DNA of 64,000 nucleotides, from positions 1-64,000 of the forward strand of contig NZ_BOOQ01000014.1 of the NCBI RefSeq assembly GCF_016863315.1, in the 5' to 3' direction. Positions 43,034-62,896 of this stretch are shown here, one piece after another. Every line of letters begins with the position of its first letter. Within the stretch, counting starts at the first letter, position 1. The notes below the pieces were generated by a model that was given only the letters and a program-made list of their open reading frames with translations, was not told where the DNA came from and did not search any database. The DNA comes from Planotetraspora silvatica. Its GTDB lineage: Bacteria > Actinomycetota > Actinomycetes > Streptosporangiales > Streptosporangiaceae. The position numbers and the translations under genes were made by a program.

Positions 43034-46000
43034 TCACGCGAGCGTCGAGCCTGCCCTGCCCTTGACCACCCGCAGCTGAACGGGCACGCGGACGCGCAAC
43101 TCGGCGACGTGGCTGACGATGCCGACCGCCCGGCCGCCTTCGCGAAGGCCGTCGAGGATGTCGAGCACGTCGTCGAGCGTCTCCTCGTCGAGCGTGCCGA
43201 AGCCCTCGTCCACGAACAGGGTGCCGATCTCCGCGCCGCCCGCCTCGGCCGTCACGACGTCGGCCAGCCCCAGCGCGAGGGCGAGGGAGGTGATGAAGCT
43301 CTCCCCGCCGGACAGCGTGGCCGGGTCCCGGTCGACGCCGGTCCACGCGTCGAGGACGCGCAGGCCGAGCCCGCCGCCCGACCGGCCCCGGTCGCCCGCG
43401 GCCCGGCGGAGGTCGTGCTGGAGCAGGTAGCGCCCCGACGACATGTGCTCGAGCCGCTCGTTGGCGGCCTCGACCACCTGCCTGAGCCGCTCGCCGAGCA
43501 CGAACGACGACAGGCGCATGTGCCACTGGTTGTCGGCGGACGTCCCGCCCGCGAGCTCGGCGAGCCGGCGGGCGAGCCGGTGCCGCTCGGCGGCCGGACG
43601 GTAGCGGGCGAGGGCCTCGCCCAGCTCCCCCGCGAGGGCCGTGAGCCGGAACGCCGTCTCGCCGGCGAGATCCCTGGCCGAGGTGCGGGCGGCGTGCTCC
43701 CGGTCGGCCCGGTCATGCTCGCTCTCCAGGGTCACGAGGTCCGGCGCGGGTTCGGCCGCCGCGGCGACGAGCTCGGGATCGGCGAGCAGCCGGCCGACGG
43801 CCACCTGCTCACCGTCGAGGAACCTGAGGCGTTCGGCCATCGCCTCCAGATCGGCCGGCGCGCGCACCGCCGCCCCGGCGTGCTCGAGCCCGGCGAACCC
43901 CGCGTCGGTCGCGGCGTCGGCGGCCCGCTCGAGCGCCGCCCGGCGTTCGAGGTCCGCCGTGGCGGCGGCGCGGGCCGCCTCGCCGGCGTCCCCGAGGAGG
44001 GCGGCCTCGTCGACGAGTCGGTCGAGCCGGGCCGCGAGTGACGCGTCGCCACCTCGCGCGGCGTCCACCAGCGCGGCGAGCCTGCCTTCGTCCGCGGTCA
44101 GTTGCTCGTCACGTGCCCGGGTGTCCGCCGCCTCGATCGCGATCTCCTGGGCCTGGACCGTCAGATCCTCCAGCTCGGCCGCCAGCCGGGCGGCCCTGTC
44201 CGCCAGCTCGGGCTCCCGGCCCGCGACCTGCTCGGCGCGCCGCAGGCTACGCTCCGCCTCGTCGAGGTCGCCGCCGTCGCCGGCGAGGCGTTCCTTCTCC
44301 TCCAGCAACGCGCCGAGCACCGTCGTGGTCTCGGCGACGCGGCGGCCCGCCAGGGCCACCTGGTCACGGATCTCGGCGGCGAGCCGCGAGGACCACTCGG
44401 CGCACCTCTCCTCCGCCGCCTCGCGGGCCTGGCGGGCGATCTCGAAGGCGTCCTGGGCCGCCTGCTCGTCGTCGCCGCTCAACGCCCGGCCGGCGGCTTC
44501 GGCCGGCGCGGGGTGGTCGGCCGACCCGCACACCACGCACGGCTCCCCCTCGACGAGGGACGCCGCCAGCTCGGCGGCCATGCCCTCGATCCGGGCACGG
44601 CGCACCTCCTGCAGCCGGTCGCGCGCGGCCTGCGCCCCGTCCACCGCGACGCGCCTGGCATGCTCGGCCGCGTCGAGCTCGCGGGCCAGCCGCGCGGCGG
44701 CCGCCAGCGCCGGAACCCCCAGCTGGCGGGTCTGGGAGGCGGCGAGGATCTCCTTCTCGCTCTCCGTGAGAGCCGCGAGCTCGGCCTCCAGCACGCCGAT
44801 CCGCCGGGTCACCTCGGCGGCACGCGCCGCGGTGTCCCTGGCGGCCGCCAGGCCCGGGATGCCCGCCGCCGCCAGTCGCGCCTCGTCGAGGAGCCTGCCG
44901 GCCTCGCGCCGACCCTCGGGCAATGCGGCGAGCCGGACGGCGAGGACCGCCTCACGCTCCTCGAGAGTGGTGAGCCTGCGCCTGCCGGCGCCGAGATCGG
45001 CGCGCACCTGCCGCAGGCGGGTCTCCTCGGGGAGGAGTTGCCGCACACGGGCGACCTCGTCGAGGCGCTCCCGTTCCATGGCAGCCAGGCGCTCCTCACC
45101 GGGCGGCTCCTCCCCCGGCAGCGCCCGGCTCGTGGCGTCGGCGGCCAGCCGCCGGGCCTTGGCCGCGGTCTCGGCCCGCTGCTCCGCCAGGCGGATCAGC
45201 GGCAGCACCCGCGCGGCCCTGGCCGCGTCGTCGAGGATCGCCTGGATGTCCACCCGTTCCTCGGCGGCGCCGTCCAGTGCCTCACGTCTGGCGAGCGCGT
45301 CCGCGTGCCTGCGCCGGCGGTCGGCCAGCGCCCGGCCGCCGGCGAGCCGGTCCCGGGCGGAGCGCAGGCGGGCCTCGCTCACCGCCCATTCCCCGGCGGC
45401 GCGCTCGAAGGCGGCGGCGGCGAGGGCGACCACCGCCTCGGGCTCGTCCTCCGGGACGGGAAGCTCCGCGCCCGCCGCCCCGCGCATGCGGTCCACGACG
45501 GACTGGGCCCGCTGCCGGAGCTCCTGCTGATCGCGCCCGGTCCGCGTGCGGTGGTCGGCCAGCCACGCCTCGACGTCGGTGAAGATCTTGACGGAGAACA
45601 GCTTCTCGAGGAGCCTGCGGCGGTCGTCGCCGTCCGCCTGCAGGAATCGGGCGAAGTCACCCTGCGGCAACATGGCGACCTGCCAGAACTGCTCGGCGTT
45701 CATCCCGAGCAACTCGCCGATCAGGTGACCGGCCTCGTCGGCGCGGGTGCTCCGCCCGATCCACGTGCCGGTGAACTCCTCCACGAGGACCTTGGCCTTC
45801 TCTTCGACCAGACCCTCTCCCTTCAGCTTGGGCCGCATCCAGGCGGGCGACCGGGTGACACGCAGGCGCCGCCCCCGGATCGTCACCTCCAGCGTGACGA
45901 CGGGCCCCCGCCCGGGAGGTGCGTGGTCGCAGCGCAGACTGCGGGCGCTGTCCCGCCGGCCGGGCACCCGGCCGTACAGCGCGTAGCAGACCGCGTCGAG

Positions 46001-46132
46001 CACGGTCGTCTTGCCCGCGCCCGTCGCCCCGTGGATCAGGAAGAGCCCCGCCTCGCCGAGGGCGTCGAAGTCGACCTCCTCGGCCCCGGGGAAGGACCCG
46101 AACGCCTCCAGCACCAACCGGTGCAATCTCAC
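43034..46132 (-). CDS. sbcC: Exonuclease SbcC subunit (SMC-like ATPase)
   Basis: A 1032-residue Rad50-type ATPase of the SbcCD nuclease, which trims hairpins and protein-blocked DNA ends. Walker A GATGAGKTT at residues 35-43, a long coiled coil, a zinc hook CVVCGS near residue 530, a second coiled coil, then the ABC signature LSGGESF and Walker B TLFVDEGFGTLD. GTG 46132 overlaps the sbcD stop (GTGA); a much longer in-frame extension runs through sbcD and is not real. It shares the sbcD promoter, which carries a DNA-damage-type motif. Confidence 0.94.
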   Translation of the reverse strand: MRLHRLVLEAFGSFPGAEEVDFDALGEAGLFLIHGATGAGKTTVLDAVCYALYGRVPGRRDSARSLRCDHAPPGRGPVVTLEVTIRGRRLRVTRSPAWMRPKLKGEGLVEEKAKVLVEEFTGTWIGRSTRADEAGHLIGELLGMNAEQFWQVAMLPQGDFARFLQADGDDRRRLLEKLFSVKIFTDVEAWLADHRTRTGRDQQELRQRAQSVVDRMRGAAGAELPVPEDEPEAVVALAAAAFERAAGEWAVSEARLRSARDRLAGGRALADRRRRHADALARREALDGAAEERVDIQAILDDAARAARVLPLIRLAEQRAETAAKARRLAADATSRALPGEEPPGEERLAAMERERLDEVARVRQLLPEETRLRQVRADLGAGRRRLTTLEEREAVLAVRLAALPEGRREAGRLLDEARLAAAGIPGLAAARDTAARAAEVTRRIGVLEAELAALTESEKEILAASQTRQLGVPALAAAARLARELDAAEHARRVAVDGAQAARDRLQEVRRARIEGMAAELAASLVEGEPCVVCGSADHPAPAEAAGRALSGDDEQAAQDAFEIARQAREAAEERCAEWSSRLAAEIRDQVALAGRRVAETTTVLGALLEEKERLAGDGGDLDEAERSLRRAEQVAGREPELADRAARLAAELEDLTVQAQEIAIEAADTRARDEQLTADEGRLAALVDAARGGDASLAARLDRLVDEAALLGDAGEAARAAATADLERRAALERAADAATDAGFAGLEHAGAAVRAPADLEAMAERLRFLDGEQVAVGRLLADPELVAAAAEPAPDLVTLESEHDRADREHAARTSARDLAGETAFRLTALAGELGEALARYRPAAERHRLARRLAELAGGTSADNQWHMRLSSFVLGERLRQVVEAANERLEHMSSGRYLLQHDLRRAAGDRGRSGGGLGLRVLDAWTGVDRDPATLSGGESFITSLALALGLADVVTAEAGGAEIGTLFVDEGFGTLDEETLDDVLDILDGLREGGRAVGIVSHVAELRVRVPVQLRVVKGRAGSTLA

Positions 46133-47247
46133 AGGCTCTCCTTGATCCGGGAGGCCTCGACGGCCGCCCCGAGCAGGCGGATCTCCTCGTCGTCGGCCGG
46201 CTCGCCGCGGACCTCGCGGACGAAATCGGCCGCCACGTCGATCTCGGCGCGCCCCGCGACGCGGGGCGGCCGGGCGGGCGCGGCCACCGGGCCGTCGGGC
46301 TTGAAGGCGAGCGCCAGCGTATGCGGGAAGCGGCGCCGCAGGCGCTCCATGGCCTCGCGCGGACGGACCGGGTCGGTGAGGGTCACCTGGAGCCAGTGGT
46401 CCTCGCGGTCCGCGTGACGGGCATCGGTCAGCAGGTCGTCGAGACGGCCGCTCAGCGTGCCGACGGGCCGGGGAACGGGCGCGGGGACGAAGCCGACGCG
46501 GGCGTCCCCCGGCCCGCCGGCGTCGAGATCCACCAGCCAGGACCCCTTGCGCTGCCCCGCCTCGGAGAAGGAGTAGGCGATCGGGGACCCCGAGTAGCGG
46601 GCGGTCTCGCTCATCACCTGACGGCCGTGCAGATGGCCCAGCGCCACGTAGTCGGCGCCGGCGAAGGCGGCCAGCGGCACGTGGGACACCCCGCCGACGC
46701 TGATGTCCCGCTCGCTGTCGCTCGCCTCGCCGCCGGTGACGAACGCGTGGGCGAGCACGACCTTGCGCCGGCCGGACCTGTCGGCGCGGATCCGCTCCAT
46801 GGCGTGCGTGATCGCGGCCGTGTGGGTGCGCTCGGCCAGCTCCCAGGGGCCCCTGACCAGCTCGGGCTCCAGATAGGGGATGCCGTAGAAGGCCACGTCG
46901 CCGATGACGACGGGATCCCAGGCACGCGCCGGGTCGGTCCGCAGGTGCACCCGCTCCATGAGGCCGGCGCCGAAGCCGAGCCGTATGGAGGAGTCGTGGT
47001 TGCCGCTGATCAGCACCGTGTGCACACCCTCCGCCTTCAGCCGGGCGAGCGCCTCGTCGCAGAGGGCCACCGCGTCGACGGGCGGCAGCGCCCGATCGTA
47101 GACGTCGCCGGAGACCACCACGACGTCGACCCGCTCGGCCCTGACCGTCTCGACGAGGTGCTCCACGAAGGCGGCCTGGGCGCTCAGCAGGCTCTCCCGG
47201 TGGAACGACCGGCCGAGATGCCAGTCGGAAGTGTGCAGGACACGCAT
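46129..47247 (-). CDS. sbcD: Exonuclease SbcD subunit (Mre11-like nuclease)
   Basis: A 372-residue metallophosphoesterase and catalytic partner of SbcC. Motifs in order: TSDWHLG (Asp8, His10), VSGDVYDRA, ISGNHDS, LAHAFVTGG, and ALGHLHG, all metal ligands of the Mre11 family. ATG 47247 begins at the conserved MRVLHTSDWH; the transcript start would lie only about 2 nt upstream. The promoter TTGTCGGAG-N8-TAGCTT suggests damage-induced expression independent of LexA. Confidence 0.94.
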   Translation of the reverse strand: MRVLHTSDWHLGRSFHRESLLSAQAAFVEHLVETVRAERVDVVVVSGDVYDRALPPVDAVALCDEALARLKAEGVHTVLISGNHDSSIRLGFGAGLMERVHLRTDPARAWDPVVIGDVAFYGIPYLEPELVRGPWELAERTHTAAITHAMERIRADRSGRRKVVLAHAFVTGGEASDSERDISVGGVSHVPLAAFAGADYVALGHLHGRQVMSETARYSGSPIAYSFSEAGQRKGSWLVDLDAGGPGDARVGFVPAPVPRPVGTLSGRLDDLLTDARHADREDHWLQVTLTDPVRPREAMERLRRRFPHTLALAFKPDGPVAAPARPPRVAGRAEIDVAADFVREVRGEPADDEEIRLLGAAVEASRIKESL

Positions 47248-47255
47248 GTCGCAGG

Positions 47256-47278
47256 AAGCTAACAGGTCCCTCCGACAA
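47256..47278 (-). promoter_or_regulatory. DNA-damage (PafBC/RecA-NDp-type) promoter of sbcDC
   Basis: TTGTCGGAG (47278-47270), exactly 8 nt, TAGCTT (47261-47256). This fits TTGTCRGTG-N8-TANNNT with one mismatch in the upstream block. ATG 47247 follows 8 nt later. Confidence 0.7.
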
Positions 47279-52385: not shown

Positions 52386-53732
52386 TCAGCGAGCGTGGTC
52401 AAAACGCCCGGCGACGGCGGCACCCGTCCCCGCCATGACGACGAGCAGGCCGAAACACGCCAGATAGACGGCCGGTGTGCCGCCGAACCCCGCGAAAATC
52501 GCACCTGTGGCGGCGACGGCGACGATCGAGAACACGGACTCTCCGATGGCGAGGGACGCGGAGTTCCTGCCCTCCTCGCCGGGCGCGGACAACTCGAGGA
52601 CGAGGACGGACAACGTCGGGTAGACCAGGCCGACGCCGAGCCCGGCGAGGACCCATCCCGCGAACGCGGCGAGCACGGGGACACTCTCGAAGACGGCCAG
52701 AGCGGTGACCGCGATCCCGGCCGCGATCAGCGCCGTGCCCACGCGGAGGACGGTCGCCCTGCCGAACGACCCGCGCCCCTGGATCCACGAGCCGAGCGAC
52801 CAGGCCAGCGCGCCTCCGGTGAGGGCGATGCCCGCCTGAGCCGGGCTGAGCCCCCGCTCGGACGTCAGGGTGAGAGGGACGAAGACCTCGGTGGCGAAGA
52901 ACGCGCCGGCCGCGAGCCCGCGCAGGGCCACGACGGCCGGCAGGCCGCGCGCCGCCCGCAACGTCCCCGGCGGCAGCAGGCGGGGCAGCGCGAGAGCGAG
53001 GAGCACCAGGCCCACGATCGCCAGCGACGAACCGGGCCACGACGTGCCGCTGCCGTACTGGAGGAGGGCCGCGCCCACGGCGGCCACCGCGCCCCACACG
53101 AGGGCCGGCACGAAGTCCCGGTTCCCGTCCGCCCCGGCGGGCGGCGCGGTCCCCCGCGGCAGGCCGCGCCACAGGACGAGCGCCGCCGGAGCGGCGAGCA
53201 CCGGCACGCCCAGGAAGACCCACCGCCAGCTCAGCTGCTCGGCGACGATGCCGGTGATCGCGGGCCCGACCACCGAGGGCAGCACCCAGGCGGCGGCCAG
53301 CAGCGAGAAGACCCGGGGGTGCGCCTGGGCCGGATACACCTGGGCGACCAGGACGTAGAGCGCGACGTTGAACAGGCCGCCGCCGAGCCCTTGGATGAAC
53401 CGGCCCGCGAGGAAAACCTCCATCGTGGGTGCCGTCCCGGCGATGAGGAGGCCGCCCATGAAGGCGGCGACGCCGGTCCACAGAGGCGCACGCGGGCCCT
53501 TCGCGTCACTCCAGCGCCCGCCCACGACCGTCGCGATCACTCCCGCGGCCAGGCCGCCGCTGAAGGCCAGGCCGTACAGGTGGTAGCCGTCGAGCTCACG
53601 CCCGACGACGGGCATCGCCGTCGCCACGGCGAGGTACTCGAACGCGACCAGCGTGCTCAGCGCGATCATCCCGGCGCTCAGAGCGCGCAGGCGCGGGGAG
53701 AACACGGCGGACTCGGTCAACGTGGCGGACAT
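52386..53732 (-). CDS. MFS transporter
   Basis: A 448-residue permease of the drug:proton antiporter type with 12-14 helices. GGRWSDAKGPRAPLW between TM2 and TM3 is the MFS loop motif; FIQGLGGGLFNVALYVLVAQVYP follows. It lies 10 nt after the VWA gene, and TAAGGT (53745-53740) at that junction lies 7 nt before ATG 53732. It could thus be read with the cassette or from its own leaderless start. The substrate is unknown. Confidence 0.88.
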   Translation of the reverse strand: MSATLTESAVFSPRLRALSAGMIALSTLVAFEYLAVATAMPVVGRELDGYHLYGLAFSGGLAAGVIATVVGGRWSDAKGPRAPLWTGVAAFMGGLLIAGTAPTMEVFLAGRFIQGLGGGLFNVALYVLVAQVYPAQAHPRVFSLLAAAWVLPSVVGPAITGIVAEQLSWRWVFLGVPVLAAPAALVLWRGLPRGTAPPAGADGNRDFVPALVWGAVAAVGAALLQYGSGTSWPGSSLAIVGLVLLALALPRLLPPGTLRAARGLPAVVALRGLAAGAFFATEVFVPLTLTSERGLSPAQAGIALTGGALAWSLGSWIQGRGSFGRATVLRVGTALIAAGIAVTALAVFESVPVLAAFAGWVLAGLGVGLVYPTLSVLVLELSAPGEEGRNSASLAIGESVFSIVAVAATGAIFAGFGGTPAVYLACFGLLVVMAGTGAAVAGRFDHAR

Positions 53733-53739
53733 GGCATGG

Positions 53740-53745
53740 ACCTTA
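53740..53745 (-). promoter_or_regulatory. -10 TAAGGT, possible leaderless start of the MFS gene
   Basis: TAAGGT overlaps the VWA stop codon and ends 7 nt before ATG 53732. A possible internal promoter. Confidence 0.35.
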
Positions 53746-54861
53746 CGGGTGGCGGCCGGGGGCGGCCATCGGACGTTGGTCGTAGGACCGGCGCTCGATC
53801 GCCGCGGCCATCAGCTCGGGGAACGCGTCAGGTGTGCAGGCGAACGCCGGCACCCCCATCTGCGCGAGCGCCGCCGCGTTGTCGTGGTCGTACTGCGGCG
53901 TCCCCTCGTCGGACAGGGCGAGCAGGACGATGACCTGGACGCCGGCGTCGGTCATCGCGGCCACCCGGCGCAGCATCTCCTCACGCACGCCGCCCTCATA
54001 AAGGTCGCTGATCAGCAGGAAGATCGTGTCCGACGGCCGGGTGACGAGGCCCTGGCAGTAGGCGATCGCCCGGTTGATGTCGGTGCCGCCGCCGAGCTGG
54101 GTGCCGAAGAGCACCTCGACCGGATCGTGCAACTGATCGGTGAGGTCGACGACCGCGGTGTCGAAAACCACGAGCGAGGTCCGGAGCGACCGCATCGAGG
54201 CGAGGACGGCGCCGAAGACGCTCGCGTAGACCACGGAGGCGGCCATCGACCCGCTCTGGTCGATGCACAGGACGACCTCCCGCTGGACGGCCTGCTGCCT
54301 TCGGCCGTAGCCCACGAGCCGGGACGGCACCACCGTGTTCCGTTCGGGCAGGTAGTTCTTCAGGTTGGCCTTGATGGTGCGGTTCCAGTCGATGTCGGCC
54401 GCCCGCCTCGGCCGGTGGGTCCTGGCCGAGCGGTCCAGCGCACCGGTGACGGCGGCGCGGGTCCGCCGCTCGAGCCTGGCCTCCAGCTCGGCCACGACTT
54501 TCCTGACGACCGCCCGGGCGGACTCCCGCGCCTTGTCGGGCATCACCCGGTTGAGCGACAGGAGCGTCCCGACGAGATGCACGTCGGGCTCGACGGCCTC
54601 CAGCATCTCCGGTTCGAGGAGCAGGCGGGTCAGGTTGAGCCGCTCGATCGCGTCCTTCTGCATGACGTGGACGACGGTCGACGGGAAGTACTCCCTGATG
54701 TCCCCCAGCCATCTCGCCACCCGGGGCGCGGACGCGCCGAGACCTGCCCCCCGTTCGTAGAGCGCCGCGAGCGCGGCGTCCATGCCGGCGTCGGCGCCCT
54801 GCAGGGCGCCCTCAGCCGCGCCTCCGAGCACCAGCCTCCACCGGCGTGCCCGTTCGTCCAT
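53743..54861 (-). CDS. VWA-domain protein of the MoxR cassette
   Basis: A 372-residue protein. An N-terminal helical region (about 1-190) precedes a von Willebrand A domain with a complete MIDAS: LCIDQSGSMAAS (DxSGS at 201-205), GGGTDINRA, and LLISDLYEGG. VWA proteins of this type are clients or partners of MoxR ATPases and bind a target through a metal ion. ATG 54861 lies in the DUF5682 stop codon (TGATG). Last of the five tightly overlapping genes. The target is unknown. Confidence 0.9.
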   Translation of the reverse strand: MDERARRWRLVLGGAAEGALQGADAGMDAALAALYERGAGLGASAPRVARWLGDIREYFPSTVVHVMQKDAIERLNLTRLLLEPEMLEAVEPDVHLVGTLLSLNRVMPDKARESARAVVRKVVAELEARLERRTRAAVTGALDRSARTHRPRRAADIDWNRTIKANLKNYLPERNTVVPSRLVGYGRRQQAVQREVVLCIDQSGSMAASVVYASVFGAVLASMRSLRTSLVVFDTAVVDLTDQLHDPVEVLFGTQLGGGTDINRAIAYCQGLVTRPSDTIFLLISDLYEGGVREEMLRRVAAMTDAGVQVIVLLALSDEGTPQYDHDNAAALAQMGVPAFACTPDAFPELMAAAIERRSYDQRPMAAPGRHP

Positions 54862-57005
54862 CACGCTCTCCCCAGGATTTCCAGAACGGTCCGTACGGCT
54901 CCCGCGGCCTGCTCGTCGTCGATGCCGGACACCTCGTGGGCGGGAACGGGGGCGCCGGATCTGACGCGATCGCCGATCATGCGGCGCTCGGGCGCCGCGA
55001 AGGCCCCGAAGGTGCGCCTGAGCAGCGGAAGCACGTCGACGAACGCCTCCGCCGGCAGCCCCGTGAGCCAGCCGTCCACGATCGCGAGCAGCCTCGGGTC
55101 GTGGACCAGCAGCAGGCCTCCGCCCGACAGGAAGCCCTCCATCCACGCTGCCGCCCGCTCGGGCGGGTTGCCGGAGGACATCGCCCGTGCCATGCGGACG
55201 GAGACGTCGTCCACGCTCGCGTCGGCGTCGAAGAGGATGCGCACGATCCGGCCCTCGATGATCCCCGGCAGGCCGGTGCGCCGGGCCAGGTTCGCGAGCG
55301 TCGCCTGCCACAGGTCGCTCTCGAGCAGCCCCACCGCGCTGTGGACGCCGTCGATGAGGGCGACCATCTGCCGGGCCGAGTCGTCGTCGAGCCCGGTCAG
55401 AGCGGGCGCCAGGCCGGCGCAGATCCGCGCGAGCAGCGAGTCGGTGATCGCGGCCAGCCCGCCGCTCCCGCGGACGTCGCCGTAGCGCTGCGCCCGGACG
55501 AGCGCGGGAAGGGCCGCCATGAGATGGGACACCTGCCCGTCGAGCGCCGCCTTGTCCTTGATCGCCTGGAGGATGTCCGGCAGCGCGCCGGCCAGGTCGG
55601 CGAACAGGCACCGCTCGACCAGCGAGGTCAGATCGGCCAGGGACGTGCTCTCCTCCGCCGCGAGTTCCCTGGCCCGGGCGGCCGCCGCGCCGTCGACCGT
55701 GATTCCCAAGGGAGCGGCCTCGATGAGGGCGATGTCGAACTCGGGATGCCACTCCAGCGTCCACGACTCCTTGAAGGTGCCCTTCCCGCGGGTCTCCCGC
55801 GTGGTCCCCCACCGCACGCCGATCATGTTGAGCCGATGCAGCAGGCGGCTGCGCCCGAGGTCGAGCGGCTTGCGCAGGTCGAGGTCGTGCTCGCGCGGGA
55901 GAGCCTCGGGCTTGAGGCGCCACCGCCGCTGTTCCTCCCGCAGGTGCCGTTGAAGCGGGACCATCGGGGTCGAGCCCGGCACGCCGCCGAGCCGCTCCCC
56001 CACGACCATGCGGCGCTGGATGAGCTCCACGGGCAGGTCGTCGCCCTCGCACAACACGGCCCTGGCGGCCTCCGTCACCTCCGACAACCCCGCGAGAGGC
56101 CGGCCGCGGAGCCCGGCCAGGCCCTGCGCGAGCCGTACGGACTCGATCACGTGGGCGGAGGAGACCGGCAGGCCCTCCTCACGCAGGACCGCCGCGGCGC
56201 CGGCCAGCCAGCGCTCGACGGGACGGTCGGGAGCCGAGAACAGGTGGTCGTACCAGCCCGGCGAGGCGACGCCCGCGCCGTACCCGCTGCGCGCGGCGAG
56301 CCGCCCGTGCGTCCACGGCACCCAGGTCATGTCGACCTTGACCTTGGGGATGCCCCGTAGCAACCGCTCGTCCTCCGCCGCGGACGGCAGGTCGGTCAGC
56401 GCGGGGACGTGCCACGCGCCGCAGACGACGGCCACGGACCCGAACCCCTCCTTGAGCGCCTTGCGCAGAGCCCGGCGCATGGCGGCCTCGCGCAGCGCCT
56501 CGGTGCCGGACGGCTCGTGTCCCTCCCGGATGGCCGCCATCGCCTCGGCGACCGCGTGGAGGGTCCCGCTCTCCCCGCGATGCTCGACGACGTCGTCCCA
56601 CCAGCGTTCGGGATCGTCGTAACCCGCGGCCCGGGCGAGTTCCCCGATCGGGTCGAGCCGTACGGCCTCCTCCTCTTCGGGCAGGGCGAGGCTGTGCGCG
56701 GCGGGCAGGTCGCAGAAGCGCACCTCGACGCCCGCCTCGCGCGCGTAGGTGATCGCCTGCCATTCGGGTGAGAACACGGCGAACGGCCAGAAGGCGGCCC
56801 GTCCCTGCGCGTGCGCCAGGAGCGCGACCGGCGGTTCCATGCCGGGATCGCCCGCCAGCGCGATCAGCGGGTCGGCCTCCGGGGGGCCTTCGATGAGGAC
56901 GACGTCCGGCTTGAGCCGTTCGAGTTCGGCGCGAACCGCCTTCGCGGAGCCGGGGCCGTGGTGCCGGACGCCCAGGATCGACGGTGCGGCGACGTCAGCC
57001 CGCAT
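54861..57005 (-). CDS. DUF5682-family protein of the MoxR cassette
   Basis: A 714-residue protein. The first 210 residues hold VRHHGPGSAKAV (13-24), VVLIEGPPEAD (35-45) and GAWHVPAL (196-203). The spaced His, Glu and His recall the TraB/EreA/ChaN fold, so a metal-dependent hydrolase activity is plausible. The remaining 500 residues are mostly helical without a known domain. It overlaps the MoxR gene by 11 bp. DUF5682 proteins are found regularly beside MoxR and VWA genes; the reaction is unknown. Confidence 0.85.
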   Translation of the reverse strand: MRADVAAPSILGVRHHGPGSAKAVRAELERLKPDVVLIEGPPEADPLIALAGDPGMEPPVALLAHAQGRAAFWPFAVFSPEWQAITYAREAGVEVRFCDLPAAHSLALPEEEEAVRLDPIGELARAAGYDDPERWWDDVVEHRGESGTLHAVAEAMAAIREGHEPSGTEALREAAMRRALRKALKEGFGSVAVVCGAWHVPALTDLPSAAEDERLLRGIPKVKVDMTWVPWTHGRLAARSGYGAGVASPGWYDHLFSAPDRPVERWLAGAAAVLREEGLPVSSAHVIESVRLAQGLAGLRGRPLAGLSEVTEAARAVLCEGDDLPVELIQRRMVVGERLGGVPGSTPMVPLQRHLREEQRRWRLKPEALPREHDLDLRKPLDLGRSRLLHRLNMIGVRWGTTRETRGKGTFKESWTLEWHPEFDIALIEAAPLGITVDGAAAARARELAAEESTSLADLTSLVERCLFADLAGALPDILQAIKDKAALDGQVSHLMAALPALVRAQRYGDVRGSGGLAAITDSLLARICAGLAPALTGLDDDSARQMVALIDGVHSAVGLLESDLWQATLANLARRTGLPGIIEGRIVRILFDADASVDDVSVRMARAMSSGNPPERAAAWMEGFLSGGGLLLVHDPRLLAIVDGWLTGLPAEAFVDVLPLLRRTFGAFAAPERRMIGDRVRSGAPVPAHEVSGIDDEQAAGAVRTVLEILGRA

Positions 57006-58062
57006 CGCGGCAGGCCCGGTAGAAGTCGCGCCAGTCGTCGCGGTCGCGGACCACGGCCTCGAGGTACTCCTGCCAGACCACCCGGTCGGCCACCGGGTCC
57101 TGGATGACCGCGCCGACGATCCCGCCCGCGATGTCGGCGGGACGCAGCACGCCGTCGCCGAAGTGCGCCGCTAGGGCGATCCCGCTGGTCACCACCGAGA
57201 TCGCCTCGGCCGTGCTCAGGGTGCCGCTCGGCGACTTGACCTTGGTCCGCCCGTCCGACGTCACTCCGGCGCGGAGCTCGCGGAAGACCGTGACCACGCG
57301 GCGGATCTCCTCAATCCCGGCCGGGGTCTCGGGCAGTTCCAGCGAGCGGCCGAGCTGGGCCACCCGCCGGGACACGATCTCCACCTCCTCCTCCGCGCTC
57401 GCGGGGACGGGCAGCACGACGGTGTTGAAGCGCCTGCGCAGCGCGCTCGACAGGTCGTTGACCCCCCGGTCCCGGTCGTTGGCCGTGGCGATGACGTTGA
57501 ATCCCTTGGCCGCCTGGACCTCGTCGTTGAGCTCGGGGATGGGCAGCGTCTTCTCGGACAGGACCGTGATCAGCGCGTCCTGGACGTCGGAGGGCATCCG
57601 GGTGAGCTCCTCCACCCGGGCCAGCCGCCCCTCGGCCATCGCCCGCATCACCGGGCTCGGGGTCATCGCCTCGCGGGAGGGACCCTCCGACAGGAGACGG
57701 GCGTAGTTCCACCCGTAGCGGATCGCCTCCTCGGCCGTGCCCGCCGTCCCCTGCACGAGCAGGGTGGAGTCGCCGCTGACGGCCGCGGCCAGATGCTCGG
57801 AGAGCCAGGTCTTCGCGGTGCCGGGGACGCCCAGCAGGAGCAGCGCCCGGTCGGTCGCGAGAGTGGCCACCGCGACCTCGACGATCCGCCGCGGGCCGAT
57901 GTACTTGGGCGTGATCTGGTCGCCGTCCCCGAGGATGTAGGTGGTCACCGCCCACGGGGAGAGCCGCCAGCCGGGCGGGCGTGTGCGGTCGTCGCTCTTG
58001 GCGAGGATCGCCAGCTCCTCGGCGTACAGGTCTTCCGCGTGGGGACGCAGGACGGTGGTCAC
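56995..58062 (-). CDS. MoxR-type AAA+ ATPase
   Basis: A 355-residue ATPase: Walker A GVPGTAKT (78-85), Walker B region RVEELTRMPSDVQDALI (Glu-Glu in place of Asp-Glu), sensor 1 NVIATANDRD, arginine-finger segment LSSALRRRFN. MoxR ATPases remodel or activate partner complexes, usually through VWA proteins, and one is encoded two genes downstream. GTG 58062 has GAAGGAGC upstream and overlaps the DUF5691 stop (GTGA). It is the energy-using core of the cassette. Confidence 0.92.
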   Translation of the reverse strand: MTTVLRPHAEDLYAEELAILAKSDDRTRPPGWRLSPWAVTTYILGDGDQITPKYIGPRRIVEVAVATLATDRALLLLGVPGTAKTWLSEHLAAAVSGDSTLLVQGTAGTAEEAIRYGWNYARLLSEGPSREAMTPSPVMRAMAEGRLARVEELTRMPSDVQDALITVLSEKTLPIPELNDEVQAAKGFNVIATANDRDRGVNDLSSALRRRFNTVVLPVPASAEEEVEIVSRRVAQLGRSLELPETPAGIEEIRRVVTVFRELRAGVTSDGRTKVKSPSGTLSTAEAISVVTSGIALAAHFGDGVLRPADIAGGIVGAVIQDPVADRVVWQEYLEAVVRDRDDWRDFYRACRDAG

Positions 58063-59426
58063 GAAAGCTCCTTCGACATGTCATAACGGAACCGCAGGGT
58101 GACGGCCAGCTCGGCGATCTCCTGGACGTGGCCGTGCATCGCCGGGTCGAGCCGTTCGCCCGCCAGCCGGATCAGCTCGCCGGCGTTCCACGGCTGCGTC
58201 CCGGACGTCTCCACGATCTTCTTGAGTACGGCCTTGGCCAGCCGGGGGCCCCAAGGTCTGGCCACACCGCCCAGCATCATGATCATCTGTCCGTCGACGG
58301 GGTGGCGGACGACCAGTTCGGCGGCCCTCGCGGACTGCTCCTCCGGCGGCAGGACCGCCAGGAGGTCCGTCAGCGGCTCGACCTCGAACAGGGCGCGAGC
58401 CCACCGCGCGTCGTGCTGCAGGATCGCCGCCCGGGTCCAGCCCATGGCGACCTCCCGGGCCCAGTCGCCGACCTTCAGCTGGACGGCCCTTTCCGGAGGC
58501 AGCCCCAGATGACCGGCCCAGAAGGCCAGGGGCGTGCGGGCGACCACCTGCTGCAGCCACCAGCCGCGCTGCGCCGTACCAGCGGGGGGCCGGGGCCTGA
58601 CGCCGTCACGCTCCATCGTGCTGTCGCACGCCTTCGGCGGATCGGCGCGAAGCCCGCCGCCGTCCTTGACGAGGAACCTGGCGGCCCGTTCGGCCATCCG
58701 CAGCGCCAGCCGCGACTCGGGCAGGCGGGTGAGCAGGTCGGCGGCGGCCTGGCGCACCTCTCTCCTCCGGTCGTCGAGCGCCGCCTCCAGGAAGGGCTCG
58801 TCGTCCATGCCCAGGTCCTCCGAGAGGAGGAGCACGAACGCGGCCCGGTCTTCCGGCGTCTCCTTGTCCCAGCCCTGTTCCAGCAACTCCCGGGCCTGGG
58901 CGGGAGCGGCGGCGCGCAGCGCGGCCAGATAACCTCTACGGTCACCGCTGGTGCCGAACTCCCACAGATCGCCGGAGGGCATGTCCGCCGCCTCGGCCAG
59001 CAGGTAGCTCCATGAGGGGTTGAGCTCCGCGAGCCATCGCCCGCGGGCCCCGGTGAGGGCGCCCAGATGCGACCGGATCGACCGGTCGCGCGCGCCGAGG
59101 TCGAGCAGCCCGGGAATCAGGTGGGCGGGCACCCGCACGCCGATCACCGCCGCGGCCTCCAGCCACTCGGGCAACAGCCGCGCCTGCTCGCCTCCCAGCA
59201 TGCGGGCGAGCCGGTCACCGGCGGCGCGCGCGGCGAGCGGACGCGTCTCTTCCGCGGCGGGCGCGGGCGGGCGGCCCTCGCGCGTCCGCCGGCCGGCGCG
59301 TGCCCGCACCGCCTGCACGGCCGCCTGGTCCAACACCTCGCCGGGCGACGTGGAACGGCGGTCGGTGCCCACCAACGCCGTGGAGACCAGGTCCTCCCAC
59401 GTCACGTTCACAGCCGGTGTGTTCAC
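58059..59426 (-). CDS. DUF5691-family HEAT-like protein of the MoxR cassette
   Basis: A 455-residue helical protein beginning VNVTWEDLVSTALVGTDRRS, the pattern of DUF5691. The interior (EPFLEAALDDRRREVRQAAA, LLTRLPESRLALRM) suggests HEAT- or ARM-like repeats, a scaffold for protein or nucleic acid contacts. GTG 59426 overlaps the SWIM stop (GTGA) and the downstream end overlaps the MoxR start. No catalytic motif is visible. Confidence 0.85.
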   Translation of the reverse strand: MNTPAVNVTWEDLVSTALVGTDRRSTSPGEVLDQAAVQAVRARAGRRTREGRPPAPAAEETRPLAARAAGDRLARMLGGEQARLLPEWLEAAAVIGVRVPAHLIPGLLDLGARDRSIRSHLGALTGARGRWLAELNPSWSYLLAEAADMPSGDLWEFGTSGDRRGYLAALRAAAPAQARELLEQGWDKETPEDRAAFVLLLSEDLGMDDEPFLEAALDDRRREVRQAAADLLTRLPESRLALRMAERAARFLVKDGGGLRADPPKACDSTMERDGVRPRPPAGTAQRGWWLQQVVARTPLAFWAGHLGLPPERAVQLKVGDWAREVAMGWTRAAILQHDARWARALFEVEPLTDLLAVLPPEEQSARAAELVVRHPVDGQMIMMLGGVARPWGPRLAKAVLKKIVETSGTQPWNAGELIRLAGERLDPAMHGHVQEIAELAVTLRFRYDMSKELS

Positions 59427-60712
59427 AGCCGTACCACCTGGCCTTCCTCGTCCCATACCGTCAGCGGGCGTAACCCGCGCGGCGTCCATTCGGCGGCGAC
59501 CGTCACCGGCCGCCCGCCGGACACGGCCAGCAGCCGCCACGGCACGCCGGTCGACGGGTGCAACGGGAGCGCGTTCCCGCTCTCGTCGACGAGGCTCTCC
59601 GCGGAGGGGATCACGTCTCCCAGGACGACAGGCCAGGAATCGGCCCAAGGGTCGCCGGCCAGCACCTCGGCGATCCGGCCCGGGACCCGGGAGAGCTTCG
59701 TCCCGGCCGGGGGCCCGGCGGTCGCGGGGCCGTACCGCTCGGCGACGAGCGCGCGCACCGGGGACGCGCCGGGGTAGTAGGCCAGGTCGGCGTCGACGGT
59801 CGTGCCCGTGACGAGCGACGCGTCCAGTGCCTGGCCGATCGGCGCGAACGACAACACCAGCGCGGCCCTGCCCGTCGCCCTGCCCTGCAGCCAGATCCGG
59901 CGCGCGACCAGCCGGTCCTGCTCCTCGTCTCTGGCGCCGACCACGTCCCAGTCGTCTCTGATCCACGGCGACGCGAGCACGTCCTCCCGGGTGATCGGGA
60001 ACCCGACTCGCGACCGGACGGTCTCCACGAGGCCCGCGGGAAGCCCGTCCGCGCGGCGATACGCGACGGCCAGCAGATGAATCAGGGCGTATTCCTCCAG
60101 CAGGAGGCCGGGCCAGTCCTCCTCACGCAGCACGCGGGACAGCCGGGACACGGCGCCGGCGACTCCGGGGGCCTGCGCGTCGACGAGGCGCCTGCCGAGC
60201 TCGTCCCAGTCCGCGAGGCCGGTCTGCCGCGCTCCCGCGATCCCGTGCGCGATCTGGTCGGTCAGCCAGCGCTCCAGCTCGGACAGGCCGGCCGTGACCC
60301 TGCTCTCCCGCTGGGCGGAGCCGTTCGAGGGCCGGAACCCCTGCGCGGGCTCGCACTCGCGCTTGTCCTGCCGCTCTGCCCGGCTGCGCCGTTGCTCGAG
60401 CCATTCGGTCACCCATCCGGCGGGCGCGCCGCCGTCGGGCACCCCGCCCGACGCCCATAACAGCAGGAGCCCGAGCGCGTGCTTGCACGGGAACTTCCTG
60501 CTCGGGCAACTGCACTTGTAGGCCGGTTCGGAGAGGTCGACGCACGCCCGATACGGCGTGGCGCCGCTGCCCTTGCACTCTCCCCACACCACGTCGGGAA
60601 GAGCACCGCTGCCCGACCATTTCCCCGGCGCGCTGACACCGGCCGCCGCCTTCTGCGACGCCGCGTCAGGTGCGAGGGAGAGCACCTGATCTCGGCTCCA
60701 CCGTTCGGTCAC
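59423..60712 (-). CDS. SWIM zinc-finger protein, first gene of the MoxR cassette
   Basis: A 429-residue protein with the SWIM zinc site C67-S-C69 and C76-K-H78 (KCSCPSRKFPCKH), then a long mixed region without a known domain. SWIM fingers bind DNA or proteins, so this is the probable recognition component. GTG 60712 was chosen because TAATGT ends 7 nt upstream; GTG 60721 overlaps that hexamer. First gene of a 7-kb run with all junctions overlapping, behind a damage-type promoter. Confidence 0.9.
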   Translation of the reverse strand: MTERWSRDQVLSLAPDAASQKAAAGVSAPGKWSGSGALPDVVWGECKGSGATPYRACVDLSEPAYKCSCPSRKFPCKHALGLLLLWASGGVPDGGAPAGWVTEWLEQRRSRAERQDKRECEPAQGFRPSNGSAQRESRVTAGLSELERWLTDQIAHGIAGARQTGLADWDELGRRLVDAQAPGVAGAVSRLSRVLREEDWPGLLLEEYALIHLLAVAYRRADGLPAGLVETVRSRVGFPITREDVLASPWIRDDWDVVGARDEEQDRLVARRIWLQGRATGRAALVLSFAPIGQALDASLVTGTTVDADLAYYPGASPVRALVAERYGPATAGPPAGTKLSRVPGRIAEVLAGDPWADSWPVVLGDVIPSAESLVDESGNALPLHPSTGVPWRLLAVSGGRPVTVAAEWTPRGLRPLTVWDEEGQVVRL

Positions 60713-60719
60713 GCGCCGC

Positions 60720-60742
60720 ACATTAGCCACACCCGCCGACAA
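60720..60742 (-). promoter_or_regulatory. DNA-damage (PafBC/RecA-NDp-type) promoter of the SWIM-MoxR-VWA operon
   Basis: TTGTCGGCG (60742-60734), exactly 8 nt, TAATGT (60725-60720), then 7 nt to GTG 60712, so the transcript is probably leaderless. It matches TTGTCRGTG-N8-TANNNT except for one base of the upstream block. Confidence 0.7.
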
Positions 60743-60756
60743 ATCCCTTCGCCTCC

Positions 60757-61161
60757 TCACCCGGCGGCGATCACTTCTATCTCCACCAGCCAATCGCTGA
60801 CGAGCGTCTGCACGACGATGGCGGTGGTGGGGATGAGGCGCCCTCCGAGTCCCGCCACGCGAGCGGCCGCGTTCGCCTCCGCATAGGACGCGTCACGCAG
60901 GTAGCTGGTGAGCCTCACGACGTTGTCGACGGTCATGTCGGCCGACGCGAGGATGGCCGTGAGGTTGGACCAGATGAGGCCGAGCTGCTCGTCGAGCGTG
61001 GCGCCCGCCGCGCCTGTGGGGTCCAGTCCCATCGTTCCGGAGACGAACAGCAGCCGCTGCGCGCCGCGGACCTCCATCGCGTGCACGTAGTCGCCGGTCG
61101 GGGCATAGACCCCGGGCCCCGGGTCGCGAGGGAGGATTTCGAGCTGAGGATCGGCTGTCAT
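60757..61161 (-). CDS. RidA/YjgF-family protein
   Basis: A 134-residue member of the RidA family, which hydrolyse reactive enamine/imine intermediates or act in related catabolism. QRLLFVSGTMGLDPTG at the start and the closing VSDWLVEIEVIA fit. The arginine that defines true RidA deaminases is not obvious: the region reads LIPTTAIVVQTL, so this may be another subgroup. ATG 61161 has GGAAGGA upstream. It lies 37 nt after the HNH gene and 44 nt before the SWIM gene. Confidence 0.85.
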   Translation of the reverse strand: MTADPQLEILPRDPGPGVYAPTGDYVHAMEVRGAQRLLFVSGTMGLDPTGAAGATLDEQLGLIWSNLTAILASADMTVDNVVRLTSYLRDASYAEANAAARVAGLGGRLIPTTAIVVQTLVSDWLVEIEVIAAG

Positions 61162-61198
61162 GGGTTCGGGATCCTTCCAGGGGTTGATCACCAGTGGG

Positions 61199-62896
61199 TC
61201 ACGTGAGATAGGTGTCGCCGGTCCGCGCCGTCCACAGCAGTCGTCCCGGGCGGATCTGCCGGACGCGGACTCCGGGGACGGTGCCCTTGATGCGGTGGTG
61301 GCGACGGTGAAGCACGGCGAGGTTGCCATAGGCGGTGGGCCCGCCCTGATCGTAGGCACGGGTGTGGTCCACGTCGGCGGTCCAGGCCGAGTGGTTGCAT
61401 GACGGTGCCCTGCAGGTCCCGTCGCGGGCTCTGACCTTCAAGTCGAGCCGAGCCGAGGGCCGGTAGCCGGGCTCGGGCGGGGGGATCCTGTCGGCCTCCT
61501 CGACGGCTTTCTCAAGAGCACTACCAGGGGCGTCGTGATCGGGGCCTGCTCTGACGGCGATCTCCCCGTGCAGGATGATCTGGCCGTCCACGTCGCGGAC
61601 GGCGACCCAGCGGCGGGCGTCGCGGGCGAGGTCACGGGCCTGGGCGACCGTGACGAGCCCGAAACCCTGGAGTTCCCCGGGGAGGTCCGCGTCGCCCTTC
61701 ATCGAGGCGTACGGCACGGCCAGCCAGTGCGTGCGCCGTACCGGGACCTCACCGGCCCGGCCGACCACTTCGTCCAGCCGGGTCGGCCCCTCCGCGCGGA
61801 CGCCGGCGTCCGGAAGGCCTGCGGCACTCGGAGCGTCGGGCATCGGCTCGGAAGGCCACGGGACCTCCTCGTCATCCGGCGGCCGTTCGCCATCAGAGCC
61901 TCGCCCGCCCGGGCCGCCATCGGGGTCGCGGCCGAGAAGGAGGGCGTAGGCCGTGATCAGCCGCAACCGGGCCAGCGGACGGGCGTCGCCCGCCTCTTTG
62001 GCCGCGCGGGCCAGCGCGTCGACCCGGTCGGAGGCCGCGAGGGCCCACGCCACCGGGGAGCCCATCAGGGCCAGCGTCGCCGTGCCGTCCTCCTGGTTGC
62101 GCCACACCCGCACATGCGCCCGGTTCTCCGCCTCCCGCCGTTTACGCTCGGCCAGCTCGGGATCGGCCTGAAGTGCCAGCCGGTTCACCCGCGCGCGCAA
62201 CCGGGCCGAGGTCAACTCCCCGGCCACGCCGACCACCTCGGCCTGCACCGCCCGGGCCCGCTCCTCATCGAGCAGCGCGGTCCCCTGCACCAGGGCCAGG
62301 ACCTTCGGAACGTCCACCACCCCGGCGGCCAGCAACGCCCCCATCTCCGGGAAGCGCGAGCTCAGCGCCCGCCCCAGCGACACCAGGTGCGCCGCCGATC
62401 CGGAGGTGACCCGAAGCTTGGCCGCGATCTCCTCCACCACACACGCCTGATTCAGCTCCACGAGGTCCCGGCCGGCGTCCAGCGCCCGCCCGATCTCGTC
62501 ACGGACCGGCCGGCCGTGCAACTCCGCGGCCGCCATGACCTGCACCGCCTCCGCCCAGGAGGCCAGCCGGCGCGCGGCCGCCAGCACATCGAGCACATGC
62601 GCGTCCGGCAACGCGGGCAGGCGCGGGACGGCACGCTCCACGGCGGCCGCAGCCCGTCCGCCCGGGGCGACCCCCGCCACCTCCGCGAACGGCTCCACGC
62701 ACAACTGCGACCGCGGCGCGGTGCCGGCCGCCCGATCAGCCGCCTCGGCGACCGCGATCAACCACGCCGGAGCCGCGTCCAGCGGATCCTCAGGCCCCGT
62801 GGTGCGGTCCGGCCACTCGCCGAGCAGCTCCTCGTCCGCCCACCACGACACGTCCTCGGGCGGAACGACGGTCGTCGCCTGGCCCTCACCGCTCAT
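61199..62896 (-). CDS. HNH endonuclease with DUF222 (13E12-repeat-like)
   Basis: A 565-residue protein of the actinobacterial DUF222-HNH family. The N-terminal 300 residues are the helical DUF222 domain (SAAHLVSLGRALSSRFPEMG), a variable acidic and Gly-rich linker follows, and the C-terminal HNH fold reads CRAPSCN, DVDHTRAYDQGGPTAYGN, CxxC-less but with the HRRHHRIKG closing helix. Such genes are multicopy in actinomycetes, and their targets are unknown. ATG 62896 has GGGAGGTGG upstream. The promoter region contains the ATTCG-N10-CGAAT dyad. Confidence 0.9.
   Translation of the reverse strand: MSGEGQATTVVPPEDVSWWADEELLGEWPDRTTGPEDPLDAAPAWLIAVAEAADRAAGTAPRSQLCVEPFAEVAGVAPGGRAAAAVERAVPRLPALPDAHVLDVLAAARRLASWAEAVQVMAAAELHGRPVRDEIGRALDAGRDLVELNQACVVEEIAAKLRVTSGSAAHLVSLGRALSSRFPEMGALLAAGVVDVPKVLALVQGTALLDEERARAVQAEVVGVAGELTSARLRARVNRLALQADPELAERKRREAENRAHVRVWRNQEDGTATLALMGSPVAWALAASDRVDALARAAKEAGDARPLARLRLITAYALLLGRDPDGGPGGRGSDGERPPDDEEVPWPSEPMPDAPSAAGLPDAGVRAEGPTRLDEVVGRAGEVPVRRTHWLAVPYASMKGDADLPGELQGFGLVTVAQARDLARDARRWVAVRDVDGQIILHGEIAVRAGPDHDAPGSALEKAVEEADRIPPPEPGYRPSARLDLKVRARDGTCRAPSCNHSAWTADVDHTRAYDQGGPTAYGNLAVLHRRHHRIKGTVPGVRVRQIRPGRLLWTARTGDTYLT

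Follow-up and report, generated by a model that had tools for sequence, protein, structure and literature searches.

A conserved PafBC-type promoter in front of a SWIM-MoxR-VWA operon of Planotetraspora silvatica, a probable new member of the actinobacterial DNA-damage response

In mycobacteria, PafBC is activated by single-stranded DNA, and RNA polymerase with SigA then uses promoters that carry a -26 element (PMC11804915, accessible text). The variants given for Mycobacterium tuberculosis are TGTCGG, TGTCAG, and TGTCAC, followed after N10 by TANNNT (PMC8151990, accessible text). SiwR, a second mycobacterial WYL activator, also binds the -26 region, according to the accessible part of the literature on it. 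In the proteome of an M. smegmatis ΔpafBC strain, MoxR1, MoxR2, and the VWA protein MSMEG_5511 were lowered (PMC5656591, accessible text). For Streptomyces venezuelae, an initial search suggested a lack of conservation of the M. smegmatis motif, as stated in the available portion of a 2022 study (PMC9380542).

Here we describe a putative five-gene operon of P. silvatica that is preceded by a promoter of this type (Table 1). It lies in a window of 64,000 nucleotides, by which we mean the whole stretch of DNA that was analysed. We propose that the operon is very probably regulated by PafBC and induced by DNA damage. The case is made from sequence: the anatomy of the promoter and how well it is conserved, the second such promoter that came with the splitting of the operon, the sharing of the motif with repair genes, and the presence of PafBC.

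Table 1. Promoter elements and genes of the SWIM-MoxR-VWA operon and of the sbcD locus in the window.
Feature	Position	Strand	Details
-26 element of PafBC-type promoter, TTGTCGGCG	60734..60742	-	TGTC block conserved at 87 of 89 loci of the family
-10 element, TAATGT	60720..60725	-	Spacers: 8 nt to the -26 element, 7 nt to the start codon
SWIM zinc-finger protein, 429 aa	59423..60712	-	GTG start; first gene of the operon; Pfam SWIM, E 6.6e-06
DUF5691 protein	58059..59426	-	Pfam E 5.6e-133; start uncertain (GTG at 59426, 59411, or 59405)
MoxR-type AAA+ ATPase, 355 aa	56995..58062	-	Pfam AAA_5, E 3.8e-38
DUF5682 protein, 714 aa	54861..57005	-	Pfam E 1.4e-262
VWA (CoxE-like) protein, 372-373 aa	53743..54864	-	Pfam VWA_CoxE, E 1.4e-56
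Second PafBC-type site, TTGTCGGAG-N8-TAGCTT	47256..47278	-	8 nt before the sbcD ATG; internal control
sbcD	46129-47247	-	Own PafBC-type site

All five genes are on the minus strand and are tightly packed, with neighbouring ends that overlap or almost do so: the MoxR gene overlaps the DUF5691 gene by 4 nt, the DUF5682 gene overlaps the MoxR gene by 11 nt, and the VWA gene overlaps the DUF5682 gene by 1 or 4 nt. The SWIM protein contains an invariant CxCPSRKFPCKH block; in DUF5682, the invariant residues include HH, E, and H. A gene for an MFS transporter begins 10 bases past the VWA gene. Of 80 related loci, 10 yielded a relative of this transporter, one of them by a weak match, and many loci end shortly past the VWA gene. 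On the other side of the cassette, upstream, there is a DUF222 gene (61199-62896), which is without a PafBC-type site.

A sequence-only reading of this DNA had proposed that a SWIM-DUF5691-MoxR-DUF5682-VWA operon starts with TTGTCGGCG, then 8 nt, TAATGT, and a leaderless GTG, and that this arrangement fits the PafBC-dependent form TTGTCRGTG-N8-TANNNT. The make-up of the operon is borne out by Pfam, and the string is present as described (minus strand, 60742-60720). The GTG at 60712-60710, which is 7 nt past TAATGT, is the start of the 429-codon SWIM frame; judging from the distance between the -10 element and the start codon, the SWIM transcript is probably leaderless. As to the fit, TAATGT lies at the required 8 nt, and TTGTCGGCG matches the -26 form at 8 of 9 positions (the sole mismatch is C for T) and is exact for the published variant TGTCGG. 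The published degenerate motif (TGTCGG/TGTCAG/TGTCAC-N10-TANNNT) has two sites in the whole window, and these are in the promoters of the SWIM gene and of sbcD. Neither a sigma-70 -35/-10 promoter nor a terminator turned up when 53000-61500 was scanned for such patterns. We also considered control by SOS/LexA and rejected it. An SOS box has the form TCGAAC-N4-GTTCGA, and there is none from 51804 to the end of the window, with up to two mismatches allowed.

In isolation, the match in the SWIM promoter is unremarkable. The window contains 4 sites with at most two mismatches versus 1.16 expected, and 2 of 100 shuffles had as many. Because a single near-match is hardly more than chance and is little proof, we examined conservation across relatives.

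Within the family, we searched 150 genomes and found the SWIM protein in 108 of them. The comparison uses 89 loci with a placeable gene start and readable upstream DNA, the window included. Nineteen genomes were omitted (17 with a match that starts inside the gene, and 2, G024 and G143, with the gene split over contigs), and L035, a fragment of the L098 genome, was removed. The SWIM proteins of the family are 43 to 95% identical to the window's. TGTC-N12-TANNNT with a start codon 5-8 nt further on is present at 87 of the 89 loci, a count that shared ancestry inflates among close relatives, and at 0 of 89 in the opposite-strand control. The two exceptions, L062 and L088, have no site. The published degenerate motif is fitted by 68 of the 89 loci. 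Columns that were not used in picking the sites are also conserved: across 68 non-redundant loci, position 5 is G or A in 65 and position 8 is G in 52. In the same 68 loci, the columns upstream of the block mostly carry little information, so that the flanks diverge and the block stays.

Across the class, the SWIM protein was found in 92 of 394 genomes. For the wider comparison, the named loci are the best 80 of at least 518 confirmed ones, which is not a census, and 76 of these 80 are actinobacterial. Fifty-four of the 76 actinobacterial loci (best 80 of at least 518) have a score of 10 or more out of 12, and the full spread is 16 loci at 12, 25 at 11, 13 at 10, 17 at 9, 3 at 8, and 2 at 7. 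In dinucleotide shuffles, a score of 10 was reached in 16 of 3040 (0.5%) and a score of 9 in 6.6%. Each of the 22 of the 76 loci (best 80 of at least 518) that score 9 or less is singly within reach of chance. The 54 high scorers among the best 80 of at least 518 include all 23 loci with a split operon (see below), 14 of 23 from Streptosporangiaceae, Actinomadura, and Nocardiopsis, and 17 of 30 others. In family f18 (probably Streptomycetaceae), TTGTCAGTG-N8-TANNNT is exact at 18 of 19 loci, and the remaining locus has CTGTCAGTG; the start codon is 7 nt past the -10 element in all 19.

The relaxed pattern TGTC-N12-YANNNT is absent from 14 of the 76 actinobacterial loci (best 80 of at least 518), and 8 of these 14 are from Nocardia. 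All eight Nocardia loci (L209, L210, L211, L213, L220, L222, L239, and L244, again among the best 80 of at least 518) have an exact TTGTCGGTG but TA-N4-T as the -10 element, along with a longer leader before the start codon. The Nocardia promoter thus appears to be a lineage-specific form. On the opposite strand of the 76 loci (best 80 of at least 518), there was no match to TANNNT (0 of 76) and there were 24 matches of 76 when CANNNT or TANNNT was allowed, which is to be expected given the divergent MoxR-side sites of the Streptomycetaceae. One locus has lost the promoter of its SWIM gene (Thermoactinospora rubra, L192:7870-8003). The bases in front of the SWIM start there look like what we take to be the end of an IS605-type element; an insertion may have taken the promoter's place.

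Most of the best 80 of at least 518 loci preserve the order SWIM-DUF5691-MoxR-DUF5682-VWA, and so do three of the four non-actinobacterial ones among them; at the fourth (L237), the search recovered just the first three genes. None of these four cassettes (two cyanobacterial, one acidobacterial, and one chloroflexotan, among the best 80 of at least 518) has the site. We know of no PafBC in cyanobacteria, Acidobacteria, or Chloroflexota.

In 23 of the best 80 of at least 518 loci, all from Streptomycetaceae by title or by tree, the cassette is split into SWIM-DUF5691 and a divergent MoxR-DUF5682-VWA (some contigs end early). In a MoxR tree of the 77 rows that have a MoxR match of at least 330 codons and no stop, the 23 split loci are on one branch with support of 100/99, and it appears that the operon was broken once, on this branch. 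At all 23 of these loci (best 80 of at least 518), the MoxR half is preceded by TGTCAG, TGTCGG, or TGTCAC and then by CANNNT at the right distance, with a score of 11 at 19 loci, 10 at 3, and 9 at 1. The MoxR half was cut from the promoter and has its own site in 23 of 23 loci; a promoter of the same type was thus gained and kept. Where MoxR remains inside the operon, none of 54 loci (best 80 of at least 518) has a site in front of it, and the best score is 8. At L157, where the halves are separated by an unrelated gene, it is the MoxR gene that retains the site. Conservation upstream of orthologous cassettes was the point on which the sequence-only reading had staked its claim, and it is seen in 87 of 89 family loci, at 10 or more out of 12 in 54 of 76 named actinobacterial loci (best 80 of at least 518), and in the separate site of the MoxR half.

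We also noted two peculiarities around the split. The -10 element on the MoxR side is CANNNT and never TANNNT at the 23 loci (e.g., L238, L243, and L257; best 80 of at least 518), which suggests that it is weaker or differently used. And L225, which is titled Kitasatospora arboriphila, has an unsplit cassette whose MoxR groups tightly with the MoxR of Williamsia muralis; this reflects either horizontal transfer or a mislabelled or contaminated assembly.

The same motif occurs elsewhere in the P. silvatica genome. There are 16 instances of TTGTCNGNG-N8-TANNNT versus 4 of the reversed pattern. The genes behind the 16 sites are four repair genes (uvrA, uvrC, radA, and sbcD), the SWIM gene, a helicase gene, and 10 others (four DUF222-type genes and those for an IS605 transposase, a JAB protein, an isochorismatase, an alpha/beta hydrolase, RsfS, and a phosphoesterase). 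The promoters of uvrC and radA have the TTGTCGGCG variant and a GTG 7 nt past the -10 element, as in the SWIM gene, and the recA promoter is ATGTCGGCG-N8-TAGCTT. The gene that follows sbcD is sbcC-like (43034-46132). The four DUF222-type genes (L103, L105, L107, and L109, on contigs C7, C17, C27, and C32) stand directly after an exact TTGTCGGTG-N8-TANNNT, and this multi-copy family may be in the same regulon as the SWIM operon. (The label is from Pfam for L103 and L109, and from the first residues for L105 and L107, which are at contig ends.)

The regulator is present as well. P. silvatica encodes PafB and PafC as an overlapping tandem pair (G000:C40, that is, contig C40 of its genome), and the two proteins match the PafBC structures 7p5x, 9fnd, and 6sj9 with E values of 1e-56 to 1e-65. 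A match to PafC was found in 378 of the 394 genomes of the class and in all 92 genomes that have the cassette. This co-occurrence is compatible with control by PafBC but is weak evidence, given that almost every genome of the class has a PafC match.

In four Streptomyces-type genomes, TTGTCAGTG-N8-TANNNT occurs 76 times versus once for the reversed pattern. We read 30 of the 76 sites. In three genomes, one of them stands before recA, whose GTG is 7 nt past the -10 element (the fourth genome has a site at the same distance from recA); others precede genes for a DinG-type helicase, a RarA/MgsA ATPase, and a uracil-DNA glycosylase. Many of the 30 sites precede genes without a clear repair role. 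A recA promoter of the PafBC type was reportedly described in Streptomyces rimosus two decades ago. Exact sites in the Streptomyces-type genomes are also associated with a weak VWA match below the Pfam cut-off and with a WGR-domain protein that has beta-propeller repeats (L267 and L284). The abundance of the motif in these four genomes, and its place before recA, contrast with the statement about S. venezuelae in the available portion of PMC9380542.

What might the operon encode? Among proteins of solved structure, the sequence relatives of the MoxR protein are Midasin and NorQ (E 4.2e-10 for NorQ). Both are motors that act on protein complexes with VWA domains, and our best guess for the MoxR-VWA core is therefore a remodelling machine. 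For the VWA protein, a sequence search found no solved relative. The conserved HH, E, and H of the DUF5682 protein prompted the idea that it might be a TraB/TIKI-like metallohydrolase, which gained no support: there is no such Pfam match up to E 10 and no solved relative, and Foldseek matches to its model (pLDDT of 78, which is moderate) are mostly helical-repeat proteins with E values of 0.098 or worse. A known anti-phage system was rejected: PADLOC gave one partial match for the five proteins, of IetA to the ATPase (E 0.0027 over 31 residues).

Two functional suggestions of the sequence-only reading fared less well than its promoter. It had offered the SWIM protein as a possible DNA sensor. 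The model of this protein (pLDDT 89.7) has a beta-rich C-terminal half, and Foldseek does return DNA-binding folds (HIN-200 and RPA-type/OB domains), but among unrelated folds, with E values of 0.019 and worse and TM-scores below 0.4 among the 50 matches listed, so that the structural support is very weak. It had also called the cassette "ternary-type." In the published sense of MoxR-vWA conflict systems, this label does not hold, as the five proteins have no VMAP, iSTAND, or beta-propeller Pfam domain; the bpMoxR profile reaches 25.4 bits, below its cut-off of 27.

We infer induction by damage, dependence on PafBC, and a remodelling activity, which could fit together as follows. The five genes would form one operon with a PafBC-dependent promoter. 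Upon damage, single-stranded DNA would build up and be bound by PafBC, which would enable the housekeeping RNA polymerase to start from promoters that have a TTGTCRGTG-type -26 element instead of a -35 element. As PafBC is activated by single-stranded DNA (PMC11804915, accessible text), the operon should switch on as single-stranded DNA builds up, and it would be co-induced with recA, uvrA, uvrC, radA, and sbcD. The product would most likely be an AAA+ remodelling machine, with the MoxR ring acting through its VWA partner and with the SWIM, DUF5691, and DUF5682 proteins choosing or processing the substrate. We suggest tentatively that such a machine is guided to its substrate by nucleic acid. 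A more detailed version is speculative: a nucleic-acid-binding C-terminal domain of the SWIM protein might guide MoxR-VWA to proteins on damaged or single-stranded DNA, which DUF5682 and DUF5691 would help to strip or degrade. In the same speculative version, an old machine, with relatives in cyanobacteria, Chloroflexota, Acidobacteria, and E. coli, was put under PafBC, and this happened twice where the operon is split.

Could the promoter be something else? A TTGTC-TANNNT string might have arisen by chance and been kept by descent, with no regulatory role, and a single site with one mismatch is indeed within reach of chance in a 64-kb window. This is largely refuted by the divergence of the flanks around a block that stays, by the controls (0 of 89 on the opposite strand in the family, and 0 of 54 before in-operon MoxR genes among the best 80 of at least 518), and by the second site, which is found with the split-off MoxR half at all 23 loci (best 80 of at least 518); we find a chance match scarcely credible. 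A genuine and conserved promoter could instead respond to another WYL-type or general activator and to a signal other than DNA damage, such as oxidative stress. SiwR shows, in the accessible literature, that a second WYL activator can bind the -26 region, the P. silvatica genome has 18 WYL matches, and its set of sites includes non-repair genes. However, the element and spacing in front of the SWIM gene equal those of the recA, uvrC, radA, and sbcD promoters, and TGTCGG, TGTCAG, and TGTCAC are the variants published for PafBC (accessible text), which makes another activator quite improbable.

Other readings concern the role of the machine. It could be an anti-phage or conflict machine that uses PafBC as an alarm for infection or DNA degradation, rather than a factor in repair or remodelling. 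MoxR-vWA pairs are found in published conflict systems (PMC7159879, accessible text), and the single-stranded DNA to which PafBC responds in the accessible literature is presumably made by phages as well. But this seems unlikely given that PADLOC has no model for the five proteins save for the 31-residue IetA match, that the gene order is kept over long distances and the families mostly cluster in the MoxR tree, and that the third components of conflict systems were not found by Pfam. The MoxR relatives Midasin and NorQ, which work with VWA domains, and the CoxE-like VWA protein would also suit a chaperone of the NorQ-NorD type that matures the metal cofactor or complex of one enzyme needed after damage. 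No gene for a client enzyme was seen, in a survey of neighbours that covered, in relatives, the MFS gene alone, and we consider such a chaperone doubtful. We prefer a PafBC-regulated remodelling machine.

The operon is probably a new member of the actinobacterial DNA-damage response, and this would be the first biological context for a five-gene AAA+ cassette that includes families of unknown function. The cassette is found in four phyla among the best 80 of at least 518 loci; E. coli K-12 also has it, minus an intervening DUF5691 gene. The sequence-only reading knew of no description of a link between the cassette and DNA damage, and we likewise found none among the open-licence papers listed. 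In the same literature, we found no paper on DUF5682 or DUF5691 and no functional study of yehLMPQ.

How does the cassette compare with known systems? The MoxR-vWA ternary conflict systems have the MoxR and VWA core in common with it (PMC7159879, accessible text), but their third components were not found by Pfam in the five proteins, and the words SWIM, DUF5682, and DUF5691 are absent from the main text of that paper as available. NorQ-NorD and other MoxR-VWA pairs likewise combine a MoxR ATPase with a VWA partner, whereas here there are three extra partner proteins and no known client enzyme. The E. coli genes yehL-yehM-yehP-yehQ likewise encode MoxR, DUF5682, VWA_CoxE, and SWIM proteins in one row. 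However, there is no DUF5691 gene between yehL and yehQ, and the SWIM gene is last there and first here; the upstream stretch of yehL that was scanned has no CTG-N10-CAG. As for the PafBC regulon of mycobacteria, with its RecA-NDp promoters, the word SWIM is absent from the available main texts of PMC5656591, PMC8223512, and PMC8151990. There is no Mycobacterium among the best 80 of at least 518 named loci, which may be why the operon was missed in work on PafBC. The promoters themselves agree: the mycobacterial regulon has the same -26 element, spacing, and -10 element (PMC5656591 and PMC8151990, accessible text), and uvrA, uvrC, and recA, which are controlled by PafBC there, bear the motif here (PMC8223512, accessible text).
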